Assembly: GCF_011682145.1 (NCBI RefSeq)
Contig: NZ_WHJH01000009.1
Coordinates: forward strand, 1 to 64,000
Source: Massilia mucilaginosa
GTDB lineage: Bacteria > Pseudomonadota > Gammaproteobacteria > Burkholderiales > Burkholderiaceae_D
Direction: 5' to 3'
DNA length: 64,000 nt
The notes below the pieces were generated by a model. It was not told where the DNA came from. It did not search any database and worked only from the letters and a program-made list of their open reading frames with translations. How positions within the stretch are numbered: position 1 is the stretch's first letter; each line of letters starts with the position of its first letter. Both the position numbers and the translations under genes were made by a program. This document shows, in pieces, positions 42,006 through 61,896 of this stretch.

Positions 42006-42034
42006 CTCTTATACAATGGGCGGCTAGGAGAAAA
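42006..42034 (+). promoter_or_regulatory. Probable -10 box and ribosome site of rstA
   Basis: GCTCTTATACAATG is followed 14 bases on by GGAGAA and then the rstA ATG. The identical 14-mer, at the same distance from AAGGAGAA, precedes the rstB leader at 50957. No clear -35 box is seen, as expected for an activator-dependent promoter; autoregulation is plausible. Confidence 0.5.
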
Positions 42035-42037
42035 TTC

Positions 42038-42727
42038 ATGTTTCGAGTCATGCTGGTGGAGGACGATGCGCGCCTGGCGCAATTGGTCATGGAGTACCTG
42101 GCCGGGTACGAATTTACGGTCGACCTGGTCACGCGTGGCGATGCCGCGCTCGAACGTTTCAAGGCGCTCACGCCGGATGTGGTCATTCTCGACCTGATGC
42201 TGCCGGGCCTCGACGGCATGGTGGTGTGCCGCCAGATCCGCGAACTGAGCGAAACCCCGATCCTGATCCTCACCGCGCGCGAAGATTCCTACGACGAAGT
42301 GTCGGTGCTGGAACAGGGCGCGGACGATTTCGTCAACAAGCCGGTCCAGCCGCGCGTGCTGCTGGCGCGCCTGCGCGCCCTGCTGCGGCGGGCCCAGGGC
42401 AAGGTCGGCAACGCCGATCCGGCGGCGCTCGAATTCGGCGCCCTGTCGATCATCGCCAGCGACCGCGTGGTGACGTGGCGCGGCGAGCATTGCCTGCTCA
42501 GCAATACCGAATACAAGCTGCTGCTGGTGCTGGCCGAATCGGCCGGGCGCGTGCTCTCGCGCGACGCCCTGCTGAAAAAAATGCGCGGCATCGAATTCGA
42601 CGGGCTCGACCGAAGCATCGACAACTGCATCTCCAAGCTGCGCCGCAAGTTCGACGACGTCGACTCCGAAAAGATCAAGACCGTGTGGGGCGAAGGCTAC
42701 CTGTTTTCGCCCTCGGCCTGGGCTTGA
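42038..42727 (+). CDS. rstA: OmpR-family response regulator, RstA-like
   Basis: 229 residues. REC domain with EDD acidic pocket, phospho-Asp in VILDLMLPGLDG, LTARED switch and VNKPVQP; then a winged-helix Trans_reg_C domain (LSNTEYKLLLVLAESAGRVL, RSIDNCISKLRRKF, IKTVWGEGYLF). It resembles E. coli RstA more than OmpR or PhoB. The matching RstB-like kinase lies at 51194-52492, 8.4 kb downstream instead of next door. The start has TAGGAGAAAATTC upstream. Confidence 0.88.
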   Translation: MFRVMLVEDDARLAQLVMEYLAGYEFTVDLVTRGDAALERFKALTPDVVILDLMLPGLDGMVVCRQIRELSETPILILTAREDSYDEVSVLEQGADDFVNKPVQPRVLLARLRALLRRAQGKVGNADPAALEFGALSIIASDRVVTWRGEHCLLSNTEYKLLLVLAESAGRVLSRDALLKKMRGIEFDGLDRSIDNCISKLRRKFDDVDSEKIKTVWGEGYLFSPSAWA

Positions 42728-42765: not shown

Positions 42766-44067
<1,302 letters not shown>

Positions 44068-44200
44068 GGACAATCTCTCAAGAACACGCGCGAGCCGCAA
44101 GCCCTCACATGGAAACATTAATCTAAAACAAATATTGCGTACGCGAATAGTAAACGCTTACCCTGCAGCCGTCCACGCCCGCGCGCCCCGGCCTGCCATG

Positions 44201-45538
44201 TCAGCGGTACAGCGACATCTGTTCGACAAACTCGACCGGCTCGTCGCTGCGCGCAAGCACCACGAAGCGCACCGGGTTGGTCAGGCTGGCCGTCGTGATG
44301 CCGCGGCTATACCGGCCCGGGGCGGATTCGATCACGGTCACGCGCAGCTTGCCGCCGACGCTGTCGACGCCGCCGATCTCCAGGCCGTAGCCGCCGGACG
44401 GCTTGCCGCCTGCAAAAGCGGCCACCACCATCTGCTTGCTGAAGTCGATCTCCGGCAGGGCGGCGGCCTGGATGTGCTGCTTCCACAAGGCCGCCCAGGC
44501 TTGCGCATCCTTGATCACCAGCCGCTGCCGGTTCCCGTAGGTCTGGGCGTCGTCCTGCTCCAGCGTGCGGAACGCCACGGCTTGCGGCGCGACCTGGGTG
44601 AACGTCACCGGCACGTCGATGCGGTCGACCACGACCAGCTGCATCGGGGTATTGATGGCGAGGGTGCAGGCAGTGCCGGCCGGGACAGTGTCTTGTCCAT
44701 ATTCGACCACCAGCCCGGCGCCGGCGCTGCGCACGGCGCGGATGCCGAACTGGCCGCAGGCGCTGGTGCCGCCGCCGAACACGGCGATGACCATCTCGGT
44801 CTCGAAATTGACCGGACTGCTGTCCATGCCGACCGGCCCGGTCCAGACCGAGGCCAGCGTCGTGGCGTCGCGGATCACTTGCTGGCGCGCGCCCTGGACC
44901 CCGGAGTTGGGGTTCTGCGCCAGCGAGTAGAACGGCAGGCGGCTGCCCTCCTTCGGCAGGAAACGGATTTCCTCCAGTAGCGTGCCTTCATACGCGACTG
45001 TGCCGCGCCGCTGCATGTACACCATTTTTTCCACCAGCGGCTGCAAGGCCGGATCGGTACAGCCGCGCTTGATGTGGCTGCGCATGTCGTCCATGGTAAG
45101 CGAACACAGCTTCACATCGGCCGTTGCGCCATACAGGACGTATTGCTCGGTGGTGCTGGCGCAATCCCCTTCCGCCGCCGAGAACACGTATTTTTTGTCG
45201 GCCACAAACAGGCGGTTCGCATACTGGCCGCACGCGCTTTGACGGGCGCGCTGCACGAAAGGCTCGACGGTGATCCCCGCCACCACGCGTTCGGGCTTGA
45301 GTGCCTCGCCAGGCAGCGATATCACGATGTCGGGCATCGGCGGCGAAATGACTATCTCGACCGGCTGCGACATGACCGGCGGCAGCGGGGCCGGGTTGCC
45401 GGGCTGCGGCAGCGGGGCCTCGACTGGCGGCGGCGCCGGCGTGGCGGCCGGTGCCGGATCGCTGCCGCCGCCGCAGGCGGCGAGCAGCATGGCACTGGCC
45501 AGAGGGACGGCGAAACGCAGGTAGTTTGCTTGGGTCAT
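44201..45538 (-). CDS. Lipoprotein with two PrcB-like domains (copy 2)
   Basis: 445 residues. Lipobox AMLLAAC, then a Pro/Ala-rich linker without the strict Pro-Thr repeat, then the Cys-rich segment (ARQSACGQYANRLFVADKKY) and two domains: QVIRDATTLASVWTGP ... FETEMVIAVFGGG, and LVIKDAQAWAALWKQHI ... FSKQMVVAAFAGG, closing with LARSDEPVEFVEQM. The second domain fits the PrcB-type pattern best (GGYGLEIGGVDSVGGKLRVT). Secreted, lipid-anchored. Paralogue of the neighbours; function unknown. Confidence 0.85.
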   Translation of the reverse strand: MTQANYLRFAVPLASAMLLAACGGGSDPAPAATPAPPPVEAPLPQPGNPAPLPPVMSQPVEIVISPPMPDIVISLPGEALKPERVVAGITVEPFVQRARQSACGQYANRLFVADKKYVFSAAEGDCASTTEQYVLYGATADVKLCSLTMDDMRSHIKRGCTDPALQPLVEKMVYMQRRGTVAYEGTLLEEIRFLPKEGSRLPFYSLAQNPNSGVQGARQQVIRDATTLASVWTGPVGMDSSPVNFETEMVIAVFGGGTSACGQFGIRAVRSAGAGLVVEYGQDTVPAGTACTLAINTPMQLVVVDRIDVPVTFTQVAPQAVAFRTLEQDDAQTYGNRQRLVIKDAQAWAALWKQHIQAAALPEIDFSKQMVVAAFAGGKPSGGYGLEIGGVDSVGGKLRVTVIESAPGRYSRGITTASLTNPVRFVVLARSDEPVEFVEQMSLYR

Positions 45539-45706
45539 GGAATTGTCTCAAGATAGCGGGCGCGTCGAACGCCCCATGATGGAAAGATTGATTAATTTAA
45601 AATGTTGCCTAAATTAATAGTAACCCTTCCACAATGGACCATGTGTGCCCGGCCTGTGGGGAAATTGTCTCCAGATGTAGCAAGGCGCGGGCGCGTCGCG
45701 TGGGCC

Positions 45707-46408
45707 TTACTCGAGCAGCGGCGCGATCACCAGCGGCGCGCTCTGCGTCACCAGCTGACCCTTGTCGGCGTGGTCGCCGAAGCGATAGTTGACGACCCGG
45801 AAGCCGTCATTGTTGTCGTCGCCGAAGGTGGCGCCGTCGGCCACCGCCAGCAGGGCCACGTCGCCGCTGCCGTTGCGCAGCCTGACCACCGGATCGGTGC
45901 CCTTGCGCTGGTAGCTCAGGCGCACGCCGCTGCAGCGCTTGGTGCGCGCCGAGGAATCGACGTGGCGCAGGTAAATCAGCGCCTGCTCGCAGGCGGCGCG
46001 CAGGTCGCTCGTTTCGTACACGCCGTCCGAGCGCACCACGATCGAGACGCGCGCGCGGAACACGTACTGGCTCACGTTGCTGGTCAAGGTCAGGGTGGCG
46101 TTATCGTCGTAGGCGGCTTTGAGCAGGGGAAAGACGGCGCGCCCGGTCGGGTCCAGCGGCAGGCTCAGGCTGCTGGCCTTGCTGAGCAAGCTCAGTTGCA
46201 GCCCGGTGCCCAGCACGCCCTTCTCTTTCAACATCACCTGTAGATGGTTCTGCAAGAAATTCTTGGGCCTGCCGTATTTTTCGAACACCACCATCGCGCG
46301 GTAGGCATCGCGATAGCTGAGCCACTCCCCGGCCGCATCATCGGCCGTGGCGCCGCCTGCCGTCAACAGCAAGGCAAGCAGAGCGGAAACGTGGCGAACG
46401 AATGGCAT
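45707..46408 (-). CDS. Periplasmic protein paired with MipA (copy A)
   Basis: 233 residues from the ATG at 46408, two bases after the MipA-like stop. A signal peptide (ALLALLLTAGGATA) precedes EWLSYRDAYRAMVVFEKYGR, which is nearly identical in the partner copy at 47831. The mature protein is beta-rich with two Cys that could pair (RAACEQALIY, KRCSGVRLSY). I know no family. Gene order and strict pairing with a MipA/OmpV gene, twice in a row, suggest the two products act together in the envelope. Confidence 0.82.
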   Translation of the reverse strand: MPFVRHVSALLALLLTAGGATADDAAGEWLSYRDAYRAMVVFEKYGRPKNFLQNHLQVMLKEKGVLGTGLQLSLLSKASSLSLPLDPTGRAVFPLLKAAYDDNATLTLTSNVSQYVFRARVSIVVRSDGVYETSDLRAACEQALIYLRHVDSSARTKRCSGVRLSYQRKGTDPVVRLRNGSGDVALLAVADGATFGDDNNDGFRVVNYRFGDHADKGQLVTQSAPLVIAPLLE

Positions 46409-46410
46409 GA

Positions 46411-47334
46411 TCAGAATCGGTAAGCAAGTCCGGTGGACACAGTGATATTGTTGGCGCGCTCGACCAGCGGGCTGCGCCGCGCGTCGCCCTGCAGGCGCGC
46501 CGCGCGCGCGCCGCTGCTGATCATCCATCCCGGCGACAGCGCCCAGTTCCAGCGCGCGCTGACGGCCACGTCGCGCAGCCCGCCGCCGGGTGCGTACGGC
46601 ATGTTGCCGCTGTTCATGGTGTCACGCAAGCTTACCCCGAAATAACTTTGGTTGTAGCTGCGGTTGACCATGGTCAAGTCGGCCGCCAGCGACACACTAT
46701 GGTGCGGCGCGAGCGAGCGGGTCACATGCTGCAAGCCCACGGTCCAGCTGGCGCCATGGCGGTCGCGCCCCGAGCCTGCCAGCAAGTTGTTGGTCACACG
46801 CAAAGTCGGCGTCAGATAATAGTTGAAAAACACCCCACCCTGCAGGCGCGCACCGATGGCTTCGGTGCCGGCCAGGCGGTTGCCGCTGCGCTGCCCGGCC
46901 AGCGGCGCCTTCTCATCGACCGCGGGCGGCGCCACGCTCGGACGGGTCGGCGTGCCACCGGCCGGGGTGGCCGGCTTGTTCTGCGTACCCGACAGGTCCA
47001 GGCTGCCGAGCGGCACGCCTATCGCGTCGTAGCTGCCCTCATGGCTGCGGCGCGCCAGCACGGCCAGCATCGGACCGTATTCGAGCACGGGATTGGACGA
47101 CAGATGCAGTCCCGCACTCATGCCCGAGATGAATACCCCGTTGCTCCACTGAACTTGCACCAGCGGCAAGGCGGTGACCCGGTGCTCGCCCGACCCCTGG
47201 TAGCGCGGGGCCGAGACGGCGCCGAGCCCGACATACATGTCGCTGCTGCCATCCGGCATCGGATTGCTGGCGGGAGTCTGGGCCCAGGCGGCGGGAACTG
47301 CGCCGGCCAGGGCAAGGGCAAAAAGGGTTCTCAT
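46411..47334 (-). CDS. MipA/OmpV-family outer-membrane protein (copy A)
   Basis: 307 residues from the ATG at 47334 (MRTLFALALAGAVPAAWAQ, a signal peptide). The body shows MipA/OmpV features: MYVGLGAVSAPRYQGSGEHR near the N terminus, amphipathic strands and a terminal aromatic (TVSTGLAYRF). MipA in E. coli scaffolds murein enzymes; OmpV types act as porins or adhesins. A stretch with Pro/Lys/Thr (about 130-165) is a likely loop. It heads the pair with the periplasmic protein at 45707. Earlier frame extension lacks a signal peptide and was not used. Confidence 0.88.
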   Translation of the reverse strand: MRTLFALALAGAVPAAWAQTPASNPMPDGSSDMYVGLGAVSAPRYQGSGEHRVTALPLVQVQWSNGVFISGMSAGLHLSSNPVLEYGPMLAVLARRSHEGSYDAIGVPLGSLDLSGTQNKPATPAGGTPTRPSVAPPAVDEKAPLAGQRSGNRLAGTEAIGARLQGGVFFNYYLTPTLRVTNNLLAGSGRDRHGASWTVGLQHVTRSLAPHHSVSLAADLTMVNRSYNQSYFGVSLRDTMNSGNMPYAPGGGLRDVAVSARWNWALSPGWMISSGARAARLQGDARRSPLVERANNITVSTGLAYRF

Positions 47335-47508
47335 GAATATCGCCGAAAAGATGATCAGCCGCCATTTTACGGCCTGCCGCCAACATCGCCGAAATTGCTG
47401 AGTTTTCGTCAAGGCCGCACGCGCCTGCGTGCGCGTGGCGGCATCCCACGATGCGCCGATGGCGGGCGCCTTCGCGCGGCCCGCTGCATCGCCATCATGC
47501 TGGTACTA

Positions 47509-47665
47509 AGAGCCTGTCTCAGCAGATCGGAGTCGCTGCTGGCGCGCCTGGAAAGCGGGGGCGGCGTTGTTCGTCGTTGCATGGGGAGCCATGCGGCCTC
47601 CGCACGCCTTGCCCGCGCTTGCCATGCATCACCATCAGCTTCCCCCGATCTACTGAGACAGACTC
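47509..47665. mobile_element. 157-bp MITE-like inverted-repeat element
   Basis: Ends of 22 bp (AGAGCCTGTCTCAG plus CAGATCGG at the left) are inverted at the right with 20 of 22 matches. Inside is GC-rich, non-coding DNA. No clear target duplication is visible. It lies in the 496-bp gap between the two MipA pairs. The rest of that gap holds only a terminator on the minus strand and nothing else I recognise. Confidence 0.7.
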
Positions 47666-47672
47666 TGGGAAT

Positions 47673-47705
47673 AAAAAAAGCCCACGACACCGGAGCATCG
47701 AGGGC
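47673..47705 (-). terminator. Terminator of second MipA pair
   Basis: On the minus strand GCCCTCGA, a 10-base loop, TCGTGGGC (one mismatch) and seven T form an intrinsic terminator about 130 bases past the stop at 47831. Confidence 0.75.
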
Positions 47706-47830
47706 GAACGGAAAACCCGATGCGCATAGCTTAGATGCTAACGGTTTCCCTTTCCGCCTCGACATGTCTGGCAATTGTCGTAAATGTGTATTCGACATCG
47801 TCGCGCCATCCGGCCGCGCCGTCCGGCCCG

Positions 47831-48532
47831 CTACTCGATGAGCGGCGCGATCGCCAGCGGCGAGCTGGCCGCGAGCAGCTGGCCGGCGCTGGCGTGGTCG
47901 TCGAAGCGATAATTGACGACGCGGTAAGCGCCATGCTCGTCGCCGGGAAAGGCCGCGCCCAGCGCCACCGGCAACAGCGCCGGCTGCCCGTTGCCGCGCA
48001 CGCGCAACTGAGGCGCCGGCCCCTCGGCCGGATACACGAAGCGCACGCCGACACAGGCGCTGCCGCGCGCGCTGGTGCCGATGTAGCGCTGGTAGTCGAG
48101 CGCCTGGGCGCAGGCGGCGCGCAGCTCGGCGCTGTCGTACACGCCATCGGTGTGCGGCACAATCGAGACGCGCGCGCGGAAACTGACCGGCCCGGCTCCG
48201 CCATCGATCAGCAGCGGCGCGTTCTCGTCGAAGGCGGCCTTGAGCACCGGAAACACCGCGCGCCCGATGGCATCGAGCGGCAGGCGCACGGTGCTCCCCT
48301 TGAGCTGCAAGCTCAGCTGTATCGTGTCGGGCAGCGCGCCCTTGCGCGCCGGCACCAACTGGATCTGGTTCTGCAAATAGTTTTTCGGACGGCCATATTT
48401 TTCGAAGACGATCATGGCCCGGTAGGCATCGCGGTAACTGAGCCATTCCGTGCCGGCGGCGCGCGTGCTGGCGCTACCGGCCGCGGACAGCAGCGCGAGC
48501 AGCAAGGCGAGGTGGCGTGGCGCGTTCATCAT
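47831..48532 (-). CDS. Periplasmic protein paired with MipA (copy B)
   Basis: 233 residues, same length and layout as the copy at 45707: signal peptide (LALLLALLSAAGSAS) then EWLSYRDAYRAMIVFEKYGR, RPKNYLQNQIQL, FRARVSIVPHTDGVYDSAEL and a similar end (SPLAIAPLIE against APLVIAPLLE). Two Cys (RAACAQALDY, SACVGVRFVY). Two ATGs abut at 48532 and 48529, and the first overlaps the MipA stop. Same uncertainty about function. Confidence 0.82.
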   Translation of the reverse strand: MMNAPRHLALLLALLSAAGSASTRAAGTEWLSYRDAYRAMIVFEKYGRPKNYLQNQIQLVPARKGALPDTIQLSLQLKGSTVRLPLDAIGRAVFPVLKAAFDENAPLLIDGGAGPVSFRARVSIVPHTDGVYDSAELRAACAQALDYQRYIGTSARGSACVGVRFVYPAEGPAPQLRVRGNGQPALLPVALGAAFPGDEHGAYRVVNYRFDDHASAGQLLAASSPLAIAPLIE

Positions 48533-49422
48533 CAGAACCGGTAAGCGAGCGCGGTGGACACGAGAAAACCGGTGGGACGCTCCACCAGCGGGCTTTTGCG
48601 CGCGTCGCCAAGCACGCGGGTTGCTTGCACGTTATTGATCAGCAGCCAGGACGGCGTCAGTGACCAGTGCCAGCGCACCCCGGCGCTGGCGCCGTTCAGG
48701 CCGGCACCGGGCGCATACGCGCGGTTGCCGCTACGCACCGACTCGTCTTGCGTGACGCCGAAAAAACTGCTGTTGTAGCTGCGGTTGACCACGCTCACGC
48801 CGGCCGCCAGCGCCACCCGGTGATGCGGCGACGACTGCTCCATCACGCGCTGGATGCCCAGGTTCCAGATGACGCCGTCGGAGCCCTTGCCGGCCCCGGC
48901 AAGCACGTTGTTGGTCAGTCGCACATTCGGACTGAGATAGACATTGACGAAAGCGCCCATCTGCAGGCGCGTGTCGATCACATCCATGCCGGACAGGCGG
49001 TTGGGACCGGCGCTACGCGTGTTCTTGCCGGGCTGGTTCAGCGGCTCGCCGCCCTCCGGCGACAGCGACGAGGTGTTCACGATCATCGAATTGAGCGATG
49101 CGCCGCCCAGCGACGCGCCATTGCCCGATTCGCTGCGCCGGGCCTGGACCGCCAGCAGCGGCCCGAATTCGAGCGAGGGCTGGTCCGACAGATGAATTCC
49201 GGCATTCATGCCAGAAACAAAGACACCATTGCTCCACTCGCCCTGCAGCACCGGCACCGCCATGCGGCGCGGGCGGCGCGCGCCGTCGTAGGCCGGGGCC
49301 GAGACGAAGCCGAGCCCGACGTACATGTCGCGGCTGCCGTCCGGCATCGGATTGACTGCCGGGGTGCGGGCATGGACGGGCGCGCAAGCGGCGCCGAGCA
49401 GGATGGTCAACAGGATTTTCAT
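48532..49422 (-). CDS. MipA/OmpV-family outer-membrane protein (copy B)
   Basis: 296 residues, signal peptide (ILLTILLGAACAPVHA), then NPMPDGSRDMYVGLGFVSAP, which is shared almost exactly with copy A, and the same terminal strand VSTALAYRF. Strands and loops follow the MipA/OmpV barrel. Heads a two-gene unit with the periplasmic protein at 47831. Divergence from copy A is large in the loops, so the duplication is not recent. Confidence 0.88.
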   Translation of the reverse strand: MKILLTILLGAACAPVHARTPAVNPMPDGSRDMYVGLGFVSAPAYDGARRPRRMAVPVLQGEWSNGVFVSGMNAGIHLSDQPSLEFGPLLAVQARRSESGNGASLGGASLNSMIVNTSSLSPEGGEPLNQPGKNTRSAGPNRLSGMDVIDTRLQMGAFVNVYLSPNVRLTNNVLAGAGKGSDGVIWNLGIQRVMEQSSPHHRVALAAGVSVVNRSYNSSFFGVTQDESVRSGNRAYAPGAGLNGASAGVRWHWSLTPSWLLINNVQATRVLGDARKSPLVERPTGFLVSTALAYRF

Positions 49423-49478
49423 ACATGGCCCGATGCCGGCGGCACGCTTGCGCGCGCCGCCAGGGTGCGGAAACCGCC

Positions 49479-50801
49479 TTACTTTTCCAGGTACTTGGAT
49501 TGGGACGAAAACTCGACCGTGTCATCGGTACGCGCCAGCTTGACCAGGTGCGCGGGATGGGTAAACGCCTGCGAACACGCGGCCGCGAATGTCGGCCCCG
49601 GCGACCAGTTCACGCTGGCCACATGCAGCTTGCCGCCCGCGCGGTAGACGCTCTCGATCCTGGCGTAGTGGCAGCCGTTGTAGCCACCCCTGCCGAAGAC
49701 GGCGACCACCATGTCCTTGTTGAAATCGATCGCCGGCGGTGCTTCAGGTCCATTCGCTGTCTTCCATACACTGGCCAGGGTGGCGGCATCCTTGATCACG
49801 ACGTTGCGCAGAGCCACGGAGTTGGAATAGTCCGTCACGTAGACCTCGGTAAACGGCACTTCCTGGGTCGTGATCTTGATGAAGTCGACCGGGTTATCGA
49901 CGCGCGGCACCACAATCATCTGCATCGGGTTGGCGACGACGGCGATGCACGGCATGGCCGGATCAGGGTCCTTGCGCTCGTAAGCGATCACCAGGCGGTC
50001 GTTGACGGCGGTGGCGCTGCGCACGCCGAAGCTGGCGCAGGCCGAGTCATTGCCGCCGAACAAAGCGATCACCATCTCGGTCGTGAAGTCGACCTTGGGA
50101 GCGGCTGGGGCCGGAATACGGATCGCGCTGTGCTCGGCCCACAGGGCATCGAACGCGGCCTGGTCGCGCACGACCACGTTGCGCGCAGTGGCGATGCCGG
50201 AGAAGCGGTCGCTGGCGATGGTCTTGAAATCCACGGCATTTCCATTCGCTGGGAGGAATTGAATTTCTTCAGCCACATGGTCGGGGCCGAGGCCACCGGC
50301 AAGTTGCCTGTTATCGGCCTTGCCGACCATCTGTTGGAACAAGGGCAGCATGGCCGGGTCCGCGCATTCCGTCTTGGGGCCGGCAATGGTCGACGTCATG
50401 CTGCAAAGTTTCGTGTTGGAAGCCAGGCTGGACAGTTCCATGCGGCAAGTATTGTCCGGGCAATCGCCCCACTGGTACGACAACACATTCTTCTTGTCGA
50501 TCAGGAAGAGCTGATTGGACACGTTGGCGCACGTGGCGGTCTGGGCGCGCTTGATGAACTGCGCTATCCCGGGCACCGGTTCCGGCGTCGGCGTCGGCGT
50601 TGGCGTTGGCGTCGGCGTTGGCGTTGGCGTCGGCGTTGGCGTTGGCGTTGGCGTCGGCGTCGGCGTCGGCGTCGGGGTCACGACGATATCCGGCTGGGTT
50701 TGCGGTGGGGTGGGCGTGCTGTCGCCACCGCCGCCGCAGCCACCGAGCGCCATGGCGCCGGCCAGCGGGAGACAGGATAAAACGCGAATCAAAACAGACA
50801 T
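49479..50801 (-). CDS. Lipoprotein: Pro-Thr linker and two PrcB-like domains (copy 3)
   Basis: 440 residues from the ATG at 50801 (AAGGA six bases upstream). Lipobox AMALGGC, Pro-Thr linker from about residue 40 to 70, then the Cys-rich segment ([20 protein letters not shown]) and two domains: [17 protein letters not shown] ... [12 protein letters not shown] and [17 protein letters not shown] ... [12 protein letters not shown]. Same architecture as the lipoproteins at 42766 and 44201. It is read towards rstA and ends 57 bases after the MipA start. Function unknown. Confidence 0.85.
50583..50678. repeat. Hexanucleotide repeat coding a Pro-Thr linker
   Basis: About 16 copies of GGCGTC / GGCGTT, read as Thr-Pro codons on the minus strand. 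The hexamer differs from that of copy 1 (GGGGTC), so the tracts expanded independently. Confidence 0.9.
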
Positions 50802-50956
50802 GGCGAATCCTTTCGAAGAAGTTTGCGAGACCCGCCAGGTCGAACACGACGGGCAGACCGAATACGAGTAAGCACATAATAGCGACAAGCGCGCCACAAT
50901 TCCGCCAACATCTGTCCCCCATTTGTCACTTTTTTGTAATACCGCGATCCGCGCCG

Positions 50957-50980
50957 CTCTTATACAATGCTGCGCAAGGA
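50957..50980 (+). promoter_or_regulatory. Probable promoter of rstB leader, twin of rstA promoter
   Basis: GCTCTTATACAATG then, 14 bases on, AAGGAGAA. This repeats the sequence and spacing ahead of rstA at 42006. It suggests that rstA and rstB are expressed in step although separated. Confidence 0.5.
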
Positions 50981-50992
50981 GAAGCGATAGCT

Positions 50993-51037
50993 ATGGCAAC
51001 AGTTCTTGAACACCGTTGTGGCGGGAGACGCCCATGA
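50993..51037 (+). CDS. 14-codon leader reading frame before rstB
   Basis: MATVLEHRCGGRRP, with AAGGAGAA 12-19 bases upstream of the ATG. Its TGA overlaps the next ATG (ATGA at 51034-51037). Too short to judge as a peptide gene; its likely importance is to bring ribosomes to the next start. Confidence 0.4.
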   Translation: MATVLEHRCGGRRP

Positions 51038-51117
51038 ACCGCTGCTTCTTCGTACCGGCACTGCCGTCGATCACAATGGCGAACGTTGCCCTCCATCATT
51101 GCGGGAAACGCGCATGA
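51034..51117 (+). CDS. 27-codon leader reading frame 1 (rstB-start copy)
   Basis: MNRCFFVPALPSITMANVAL then HHCGKRA and TGA. It begins like RstB itself (MNRIFF) because it is a copy of that gene start. GCGGGAGA lies upstream. Its TGA overlaps the next ATG. Hydrophobic, so if made it might enter the membrane. Confidence 0.5.
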   Translation: MNRCFFVPALPSITMANVALHHCGKRA

Positions 51118-51197
51118 ACCGCTGCTTCTTCGTGCCGGCAATGCCGTCGATCACGCTGGCGAGCGTTGCCCTTCATCGTGGCGGGACGCGCGCGTGA
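51114..51197 (+). CDS. 27-codon leader reading frame 2 (rstB-start copy)
   Basis: MNRCFFVPAMPSITLASVAL then HRGGTRA and TGA. 22 of 27 residues match leader frame 1. Its TGA overlaps the GTG of rstB (GTGA at 51194-51197), so translation of rstB should depend on ribosomes ending here. Confidence 0.5.
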   Translation: MNRCFFVPAMPSITLASVALHRGGTRA

Positions 51198-52492
51198 ACC
51201 GCATCTTTTTCCGCTTCTTCGTGCTGGTGATGCTGTCGATCACGGTCGCGACCTTCTTCATCTATGTCGCCATCAGCCGCCTGTTTGGCGACCCGCTGGA
51301 CGATATCGCGCGGCGCCAGGCGGCGGCCCAGATTTTCCTGCTAGAACAATATATCGACAAAGCCCCGGCCGACGAGTGGCTGGTGCGCCTGAACAAGGTG
51401 CGCGAAGTGTCCGACGTCAAGCTCGACCTGGTGCCGCTGGCCAGCGCCCGTGCCGCGCTGCCGGCCAAGCAGCACGCCGCGCTCGACCGTGGCGAACTGG
51501 TGCTCGACACCGCCCACAAAGCCTTCTACCGCCGGGTCGACCTGCATGGCGAAAGCTATATCGGCAGCGCCGAAGAAGTCATCCACGCGCAGGAATTGCC
51601 GATCGACATCGGCCTGGCGCTGGAGATGGAAGCGGTGCGCTACGTGATCGTGGCGCTGTTCCTGCTGGTGCCGGCCGCGCTGTGGTCGCGCTCGCACTGG
51701 CTGGGGCTGCAGGCGCTCTCGCGCGTGGCCGACGAGGTCGGCGCCGGCCAGCTGGCGGCGCGCGCCGTCTTCAAGCCGCGCGCCAGCATCTATCCGCTGG
51801 CCGAGCGCTTCAACCACATGGCCGGGCGCATCGAAGACTTGCTCGACGCCCAGAAAAACCTGCTCCATTCCGTCTCGCACGAACTGCGCACGCCGATTGC
51901 GCGGCTGGAATTCGCGCTCGAACTGCTGCGCTCGGCAGCGGGCGATCCGGCGCTGGAAACGCGCATCGCGGCGATGGAAGGCGACGTGGCCGAGCTGAAC
52001 GGCCTGGTCAATGAACTGCTCAGCATGATCCGGCTCGACAGCCGCCAGGCGCTGCAACAGGCCGACTTTGAACTGGCGCCCGCGCTGCTGGGCTGCGTGG
52101 ACGCGCTCGACCCGCTCGCGGCCCAGCCGCAGGTGCGGCTCGACGGCGCGCTGGGCAGCATGAGCGGCGACCGGCGCCTGCTGGTGCGGGCGGTCGGCAA
52201 CCTGCTCAGGAATGCGCAAAAGTACGGCAACGGCCGCATCGCGCTGTCGGCGCGCCGCACGGACGGGGTGGAAATCGTGGTGGAAGACGACGGGCCCGGC
52301 ATTCCCGAGGGGGAACGCGGCAAGGTGTTCGAGCCGTTCTACCGGATCGACCGCAGCCGCGACCGCAGCACGGGCGGCTTCGGACTGGGCTTGTCGATTG
52401 CGCAGAAGGCCGTGGCGCTGCATGGCGGCACCATTGCGGTGGAGCAGTCGGAGATGGGTGGCGCGCGCTTTGTGATCGCCTTGCCGGTCTAA
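51194..52492 (+). CDS. rstB: Sensor histidine kinase, RstB-like
   Basis: 432 residues from the GTG at 51194 (MNRIFFRFFVLVMLSI), equal in length to E. coli RstB. Membrane helix 1 at residues 4-24, periplasmic part to about 150, helix 2 (VIVALFLLVPAALWS), HAMP, H-box LLHSVSHELRTPIARLEF (His near 236), N-box LLRNAQKYGNG, and GPGIPEGERGKVFEPFYR with GGFGLGLSIAQKAV. It should phosphorylate the RstA-like regulator. Initiation at GTG, with coupling to upstream mini-frames, predicts low and controlled synthesis. Confidence 0.88.
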   Translation: MNRIFFRFFVLVMLSITVATFFIYVAISRLFGDPLDDIARRQAAAQIFLLEQYIDKAPADEWLVRLNKVREVSDVKLDLVPLASARAALPAKQHAALDRGELVLDTAHKAFYRRVDLHGESYIGSAEEVIHAQELPIDIGLALEMEAVRYVIVALFLLVPAALWSRSHWLGLQALSRVADEVGAGQLAARAVFKPRASIYPLAERFNHMAGRIEDLLDAQKNLLHSVSHELRTPIARLEFALELLRSAAGDPALETRIAAMEGDVAELNGLVNELLSMIRLDSRQALQQADFELAPALLGCVDALDPLAAQPQVRLDGALGSMSGDRRLLVRAVGNLLRNAQKYGNGRIALSARRTDGVEIVVEDDGPGIPEGERGKVFEPFYRIDRSRDRSTGGFGLGLSIAQKAVALHGGTIAVEQSEMGGARFVIALPV

Positions 52493-60849: not shown

Positions 60850-61896
60850 TCAGAACTGGTTGCTGCCCTTGACGACCAGGCCACCCTGCGGCTCGGGCAG
60901 CGTTTGCATCAGCGTGGCGCCGCCAAGACCGGTGATCCGCACCTGCATCGGGCCGGGCGCAATCGCGGTCGGATAGACGAAGTAGTTGTATTCCTCGCGC
61001 TTGACGGCGATCCAGCTGGCGCTGCCGTTCGGGCGGATTTCCAGCTTCGTGATCGGCAGGCGGTGGTTGAGCACCTGGATGCCCTGCCAGTAGATGGTGC
61101 TGCCTTCCTTGTAGCGGTAGCTGACCGTTCCGGTGGTCTCGCCCGCCACCACGTACCAGCTGATCGGCACCCTGCCCGCGATTTTGTCGGCCACTTTGAC
61201 GAAGGCTTGCTCGCTCAGGTCGATGTCGCCCGGTTTGCACTCGGGGCAGCGGTCGGTGATTTTCACCGTGACCTTGCCTTTGGGCCCGGTGACGACAACG
61301 TACTGGCCGCACGCCGCGCTGTTGGCGTAATCGGCCTGGTTCATGGCGGCGACCATCAGGTTGTTCGGGCTGGCGTCGTAGCTGCAATTGCCCTCGCCCG
61401 TTGCGCCGTAAAACGTGCCTTCGCCTTTGTAGGTGGGTGAAAGGGCGCCGGTTGTCGGCGTTGGCGTTGGCGTTGGCGTCGGTGTTGGCGGCGGTGTTGG
61501 TGTTGGTGTCGGTGTCGGCGTCGGCGTCGGCGTTGGCGTCGGCGTTGGCGTCGGTGTCACCGCATCCGTCGCGCAAAATCCTGCCGCTTCCATCGTCGAC
61601 TTGCCGGCGATGGTTTTGTTCCAATCGAGCCCGCCGGTGAAGACGATCGCGCCGCCGGACTGCTTGCCCACCGCATTCCATAACGACGTTACCGTGCCGC
61701 GCACAGGCAGCGAGCCGCTCCACTGCACCGCCTCCGCATTCGGATTGACTACCTTGACGATGGCGCAGTAACCGCCCGCCCATGGATTGTTGACGACGTA
61801 GGTCAGCGACACCGGCGTTGCCGCCTGGGCGGCGCCGGCGAACAGGCTGGCGACGAGGGTTTGACAGATGAGGGTGGGACGCGGCGTGAATCGCAT
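60850..61896 (-). CDS. Secreted CBM2-like plus expansin-like protein
   Basis: 348 residues from the ATG at 61896 (GGAG five bases upstream). Signal peptide, then a CBM2-like domain (VSLTYVVNNPWAGGYCAIVK, SGSLPVRGTVTSLWN, GLDWNKTIAG), a Pro-Thr linker, then a bacterial expansin: GTFYGATGEGNCSYDA, LMVAAMNQADYANSAACGQY, KITDRCPECKPGDIDLSEQA and the D2 part WQGIQVLNHRLPITKLEIR with EYNYFVYP. Expansins loosen cellulose without hydrolysis, so the CBM should target plant cell walls. Consistent with a plant-associated or soil organism. Confidence 0.9.
   Translation of the reverse strand: MRFTPRPTLICQTLVASLFAGAAQAATPVSLTYVVNNPWAGGYCAIVKVVNPNAEAVQWSGSLPVRGTVTSLWNAVGKQSGGAIVFTGGLDWNKTIAGKSTMEAAGFCATDAVTPTPTPTPTPTPTPTPTPTPTPPPTPTPTPTPTPTTGALSPTYKGEGTFYGATGEGNCSYDASPNNLMVAAMNQADYANSAACGQYVVVTGPKGKVTVKITDRCPECKPGDIDLSEQAFVKVADKIAGRVPISWYVVAGETTGTVSYRYKEGSTIYWQGIQVLNHRLPITKLEIRPNGSASWIAVKREEYNYFVYPTAIAPGPMQVRITGLGGATLMQTLPEPQGGLVVKGSNQF
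61455..61557. repeat. Hexanucleotide repeat coding a Pro-Thr linker in the expansin
   Basis: About 17 imperfect copies of GGCGTT / GGTGTT / GGCGTC, read as Thr-Pro codons on the minus strand. A third independent tract of the same kind as those at 43881 and 50583. Confidence 0.9.

Follow-up and report, generated by a model that had tools for sequence, protein, structure and literature searches.

In Pseudomonas putida, translation of the sensor kinase gene cbrA depends on translation of an overlapping short ORF, cbrX, whose peptide sequence is irrelevant, according to the accessible part of the report (PMC6591292). In Escherichia coli, the stop of the iraD leader ORF overlaps the start of the gene that it regulates, and the available portion of that study describes the coupling as demonstrated (PMC5574718). 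Since these two cases show it experimentally, as far as the accessible text of both goes, such a device can work. For ATGA-type overlapping gene pairs translated by termination-reinitiation, the open part of a further publication gives 13 of 14 tested pairs as strictly coupled (PMC6728339), and the mycobacterial MIRUs, described from a two-component operon, are in the accessible text short repeats with an ORF that is coupled to a gene by a 4-nt overlap (PMC12548453).

The window analysed here, the whole 64,000-nt stretch from Massilia mucilaginosa, contains an RstB-like sensor kinase gene reached through a chain of very short ORFs (Table 1). That overlapping frames of 14, 27 and 27 codons, with the junctions ATGA, ATGA and GTGA, lead into this gene had been pointed out in a first-pass annotation and can be read directly in the sequence. 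The name rstB used there is upheld as the best family match: the highest-scoring NCBIfam model of the kinase is RstB (NF007898 equivalog), but at 251.6 bits against a cut-off of 478 the score stays below the equivalog level. The RstA-like regulator that was scanned, taken from a related locus and not from the window, is likewise below the RstA cut-off (204.6 vs 330). A longer kinase of 468 aa, reaching back at its N-terminus to an in-frame TTG at 51086, was rejected, the open frame of the six nearest relatives being 436-440 aa. The explanation that we consider likely for the locus as a whole, judging from comparison of sequences, is that mini-ORF 1 is a coupling ORF in the slot once held by rstA and that its junction with the kinase was later duplicated.

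Table 1. Features between the regulator and the kinase, with positions in the window.
Feature	Position	Strand	Remarks
rstA leader	42006..42031	+	-10/SD layout same as in the mini-ORF leader
RstA-like response regulator	42038..42727	+	229 aa; kinase 8.5 kb downstream
Minus-strand cassette (lipoproteins, two MipA genes and partners)	42766..50801	-	separates rstA from the kinase
Direct-repeat box TTGTC-N5-TTTGTA	50923..50938	+	probable site of an RstA-type regulator; putative function
-10 element TATACAAT	50961..50968	+	predicted from sequence
Shine-Dalgarno AAGGAG of mini-ORF 1	50976..50981	+	read in the sequence
Mini-ORF 1	50993..51037	+	ATG 50993 to TGA 51037, 14 codons; conserved, probable coupling ORF in the slot of rstA
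Mini-ORF 2	51034..51117	+	ATG to TGA, 27 codons; derived from unit copy 1 (80 bp, 51034-51113)
Mini-ORF 3	51114..51197	+	ATG to TGA, 27 codons; derived from unit copy 2 (80 bp, 51114-51193); its stop and the kinase GTG overlap
RstB-like sensor histidine kinase	51194..52492	+	GTG start, 432 aa; HAMP, HisKA, HATPase_c

The comparison drew on a family set of 294 genomes, 90 of which have the kinase at E 1e-80. Two of these, in which the kinase N-terminus is missing or masked, were excluded, leaving 88 genomes; the kinase tree holds 82, six having no full kinase in the set used. Directly upstream of the kinase start, 23 of the 88 have the regulator and 49 a mini-ORF, a further 13 have a probable leaderless kinase, and three have none of these. 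Where rstA and rstB lie apart (65 genomes), the counts are 47 mini-ORFs with two more recognized by eye, 13 leaderless kinases and three genomes with neither. The total of 49 is made up of 45 found by a scan, the chains of this strain and of M. aquatica, and the two picked up by eye, one with a weak start and the other with a stop 1 nt before the kinase start. The scan was blind to frame and considered all ATGs within 130 nt that either follow a strong Shine-Dalgarno (SD) sequence or are spaced from a -10 element as in a leaderless start. It returned an ORF ending at kinase position +1 in 45 genomes, this strain and M. aquatica not counted, and only five other ATGs qualified, one of them being the first member of the M. 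aquatica chain. The mini-ORF is a short ORF with a start of its own whose stop overlaps or abuts the start downstream. Because the second codon of the kinase begins with A, an overlapping TGA alone comes cheaply; the informative feature is a start codon in that frame that has a Shine-Dalgarno sequence or promoter and is followed by no stop before the overlap.

Mini-ORFs come in nine lengths between 8 and 20 codons (in three genomes two starts qualified, and one was picked by hand for this count). On the kinase tree, we count 16 changes of length, every one a multiple of three, some of which may be in-frame start shifts and not indels. This bears on whether the kinase initiates independently at its GTG, the frames upstream being incidental. 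The start is preceded by a moderate SD pairing (-5.3 kcal/mol in this strain and up to -9.8 kcal/mol in relatives), because of which it could initiate by itself, but the frame and the overlap have been kept through all 16 length changes, and we regard independent initiation as unlikely. What is kept is seemingly not the peptide, because codon positions 1/2/3 received 21/26/14 substitutions in 10 disjoint close pairs, small numbers without any excess at the third position. We found no conservation of the peptide beyond close kin among the first mini-ORFs of the relatives, and by this comparison, on the same small numbers, the peptide sequence appears irrelevant. An SD-led short ORF just after a promoter stands in the usual position of a sensing leader peptide, an attenuator whose codons or product would regulate rstB; a lack of conservation outside close kin and substitutions that spare neither codon position 1 nor 2 are hard to reconcile with such a role, which we consider very improbable.

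Four genomes have a mini-ORF that appears to be leaderless itself. In the 13 genomes of the leaderless-kinase class (11 in group g56 and two elsewhere), the kinase start lies 6-8 nt after a -10 element and has no SD sequence; because of this spacing the kinase mRNA is probably leaderless, and this probably represents an alternative solution after the operon was split. The three split genomes that have neither a mini-ORF nor a leaderless kinase count against the coupling explanation as a whole. The kinase starts with GTG in 44 of the 49 mini-ORF genomes versus 1 of the 13 leaderless and 1 of the 23 operon genomes. We rejected this as an independent sign of coupling: the link to the mini-ORF class fails once kinship is allowed for, and because the tree offers only three independent pairs (p 0.25-1), the association is a pattern and not a proof.

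A regulator with RstA as its best family match is directly upstream of the kinase in 19 loci, where its end lies within 137 nt of rstB and a 4-nt ATGA overlap is found in 8; it is 932-3613 nt upstream on the same strand in 39 split loci (0.9-3.6 kb), and farther still in the window. Outside the family, 27 genomes had a match, giving 18 loci, of which one with a partial match was left out; as the regulator is directly upstream in all 17 loci examined, the operon is the ancestral state (the outgroup tree has 16 loci, one having been dropped for a misplaced kinase start). In all 40 split loci viewed, this window included, the partner of MipA lies on the minus strand between rstA and the kinase; MipA itself does so in 37 of the 40, often with a lipoprotein gene as well. 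In the operon loci, MipA is divergent and upstream of rstA in 14 of 19, in the opposite orientation in one, and not within view in four. Because the promoter of the split kinase thus has the neighbor of the operon rstA promoter, the mini-ORF occupies the slot of rstA. The direct-repeat box agrees in its distribution: in the strict form TTGTC-N5-[AT]TTGTA, sought within 300 nt upstream for all gene classes, it is present at 16 of 19 operon rstA genes and 58 of 65 split kinases; the split rstA genes have it in 1 case of 45 and the operon kinases in none of 23. In these sequences, the strict box follows the slot. The form TTGTCNNNNNTTTGTA has three matches in the whole genome; the two beyond the box itself led nowhere.

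Repeats are found at other points in the window. From 45707 to 49422 two MipA genes stand in a row, each beside a copy of the same partner, whose family is unassigned; these pairs are a local duplication within the cassette between rstA and the kinase. Hexanucleotide arrays are seen at 43882-43977, 50583-50679 and 61454-61554, the first two of which fall in lipoprotein-like ORFs of the minus strand and code for Thr-Pro repeats there. At the window edge (1-218), a 66-bp unit is repeated 3.3 times in tandem.

The leader of rstA and that of the mini-ORF resemble each other. The pattern CTTATACAAT-N4-14-AGGAGA has only two matches in the 7.7-Mb genome, one before rstA and one at 50959 before the mini-ORF, and of the 26 matches to a looser form in 17 genus genomes, 25 are at rstA or kinase leaders (six rstA leaders were checked). 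The sister-genome leaders that match the leader of mini-ORF 1 have SD pairings of -7.8 to -8.3 kcal/mol. A layout confined to these two leaders, together with neighbors and a strict box that are the same as at the ancestral rstA promoter, speaks against an origin of the mini-ORF outside rstA, whether anew or from a second promoter, with the likeness of the leaders arising by convergence on the same regulator and ribosome. Such an origin would fit mini-ORFs in which no rstA codons are recognizable by eye, a likeness that is restricted to the -10 element and the SD sequence, and alignments of the two leaders that score above every one of 200 shuffles in 13 of 27 genomes and are no better than chance in about 10, a number that includes each of the five g48 genomes tested. 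We take it as a serious possibility but one well short of an even chance.

Under the preferred reading of a coupling mini-ORF in the rstA slot, rstA would have moved beyond the divergent MipA/lipoprotein cassette, and its promoter, ribosome-binding site and stop-start junction would have stayed with rstB in the form of the mini-ORF. The kinase would thereby have kept a coupled translation, the mini-ORF replacing the coupling of rstB to rstA. This very short upstream ORF would bring the ribosome to the overlapping kinase start, and a ribosome ending the mini-ORF would reinitiate on the kinase. The features that the comparison shows across the genomes are the promoter, a strong SD sequence or leaderless start, the frame, the overlap and the slot, the peptide being free to vary. 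The first-pass annotation had proposed that the kinase is coupled by termination-reinitiation through the entire chain. The comparison supports this well for the 14-codon frame, the counterpart of which sits on the kinase start in 45 other genomes, but the support does not extend to the 27-codon frames, which relatives for the most part lack and which may be neutral. In predicted foldings of 41 leaders, the start region of the mini-ORF is more open than in shuffles (0.557 vs 0.442) and the kinase start slightly more closed (unpaired 0.345 vs 0.401 in shuffles); these values speak weakly for coupling, and we rejected the idea that RNA structure strongly occludes the kinase start, for which the latter difference argues but weakly.

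The 27-codon frames belong to a tandem array at 51019-51202 with a period of 80 (TRF), the direct repeats falling at 51018/51098/51178. They had been taken for copies of the kinase start; they are indeed 80-bp tandem copies, but hybrid ones, in which the kinase start is fused to a segment that resembles the tail of mini-ORF 1. In the kinase-start part of each copy, 9 nt have been deleted, GTG has become ATG, and two leucines have become prolines. An assembly artefact was rejected: copies 1 and 2 are not an assembly duplicate because they differ at 10 of 80 bases, and M. aquatica carries a copy in its own assembly. There is one copy in M. aquatica and there are two in this strain, and these are the only 2 of the 294 family genomes with the unit; the two strains are sisters on the kinase tree (support 100/93). 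The five sister genomes next to the pair have no 80-bp copy and only mini-ORF 1, of 14 codons (16 in one), which ends on the kinase GTG. We also rejected a dispersed or mobile repeat: the unit is at one locus in its own genome, and a search with the copy's 26-base head at up to 2 mismatches gave no match elsewhere in the 294 family genomes. The 27-codon frames are a recent, local and lineage-specific duplication. The chain stays closed because the unit length of 80 is 2 mod 3; a length other than 2 mod 3 would have broken it. A suggestion that the short peptides insert in the membrane found no support, the best 19-residue hydropathy being 1.12 and 1.19 here (1.62 for the M. aquatica copy) versus 2.54 for the kinase helix of origin. 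The two leucine-to-proline changes count further against it, as do the first mini-ORFs of the relatives, which bear no sign of peptide conservation.

The junction was probably duplicated in the lineage shared by this strain and M. aquatica, with each copy beginning on the stop before it and running onto the start that follows. If the copies act as mini-ORF 1 probably does, the kinase would need two termination-reinitiation events in M. aquatica and three in this strain, or else new initiations of low strength, and the extra steps would probably lower its level. We see an even chance, however, that mini-ORF 1 alone couples and that the two 80-bp copies arose by a neutral tandem duplication whose chain was closed by chance, with no regulatory role. 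A closed chain requires nothing beyond the unit length just given, the copies are confined to the two sister genomes, and in simulations with 5-19 substitutions, 76-94% of random runs leave a 27-codon frame open; because most runs keep the frame open, the open chain is weak evidence and no proof of selection. Less expected of neutral copies is that ATG opens both copies here and that of M. aquatica, in contrast to the GTG of the kinase and the sisters, and that copy 2 and the M. aquatica copy are identical over their first 33 bases and differ at 17 of the remaining 47, in genomes whose kinases are 95.8% identical. Three copy sequences do not suffice to demonstrate selection on the copies. The contrast between head and tail sits at 51114-51193 here and at 1421-1500 of the M. 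aquatica locus (L003).

A bolder version of the preferred reading would see in the mini-ORF a hollowed-out rstA, of which the promoter, ribosome-binding site, start and stop-start junction have been kept by selection in some 50 species to translate rstB while the body of the gene was lost from the slot, and in the 80-bp junction of this Massilia a MIRU-like coupling repeat, newly born from a host start codon, that is multiplying as a dial on the kinase level. We offer this tentatively, placing it a little below even.

Operon splitting has mostly been discussed as a matter of transcription; the present comparison suggests that translation of the kinase, too, had to be provided for. After the split, most lineages would have kept a mini-ORF in the place of the lost gene, and others would have made the kinase mRNA leaderless. 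With some 60 natural solutions for one kinase, the idea is directly testable, and the zero, one or two extra steps in close relatives form a natural series for reinitiation per step. The tandem copies could also serve as a model for how MIRU-like coupling repeats begin.

Coupling by a short ORF is already known. Among titles and the opening parts of abstracts on coupling, kinase uORFs, rstB, operon splitting and MIRUs, mostly of papers outside subscription, we found no report of the arrangement described here; what appears new is the family-wide replacement of a displaced operon gene by a mini-ORF, with leaderless kinases as the alternative, together with the tandem multiplication of that mini-ORF. 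In engineered bicistronic designs and short nonsense ORF boosters, a meaningless short upstream ORF is said to deliver ribosomes, and these differ from the mini-ORF in being engineered. The 80-bp unit has an ORF with 4-nt overlaps at both unit ends in the manner of the MIRUs, whose units measure about 77-101 bp and whose original paper is reportedly that of Supply et al. 1997, but it has no interspersed copies at several loci. Among natural systems, cbrX-cbrA is alike in having a short ORF that overlaps the start of a sensor kinase; according to the accessible part of the report, cbrX has 58 codons, a peptide conserved in Pseudomonas and Azotobacter, and a 17-nt overlap (PMC6591292), whereas the ORF here has 8-20 codons, an unconserved peptide, a 4-nt overlap and the slot of a displaced regulator gene. 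The iraD leader differs in that its target is an antiadapter and its control is by CsrA, as given in the available portion of the study (PMC5574718). The ATGA-type pairs are, in the open part of the publication, full genes (PMC6728339), whereas here the upstream partner is a mini-ORF, with three in series in this strain. Finally, the MIRUs are interspersed and appear mobile in the text available (PMC12548453), whereas the 80-bp unit occurs at this locus only and derives from the start of the host gene itself.
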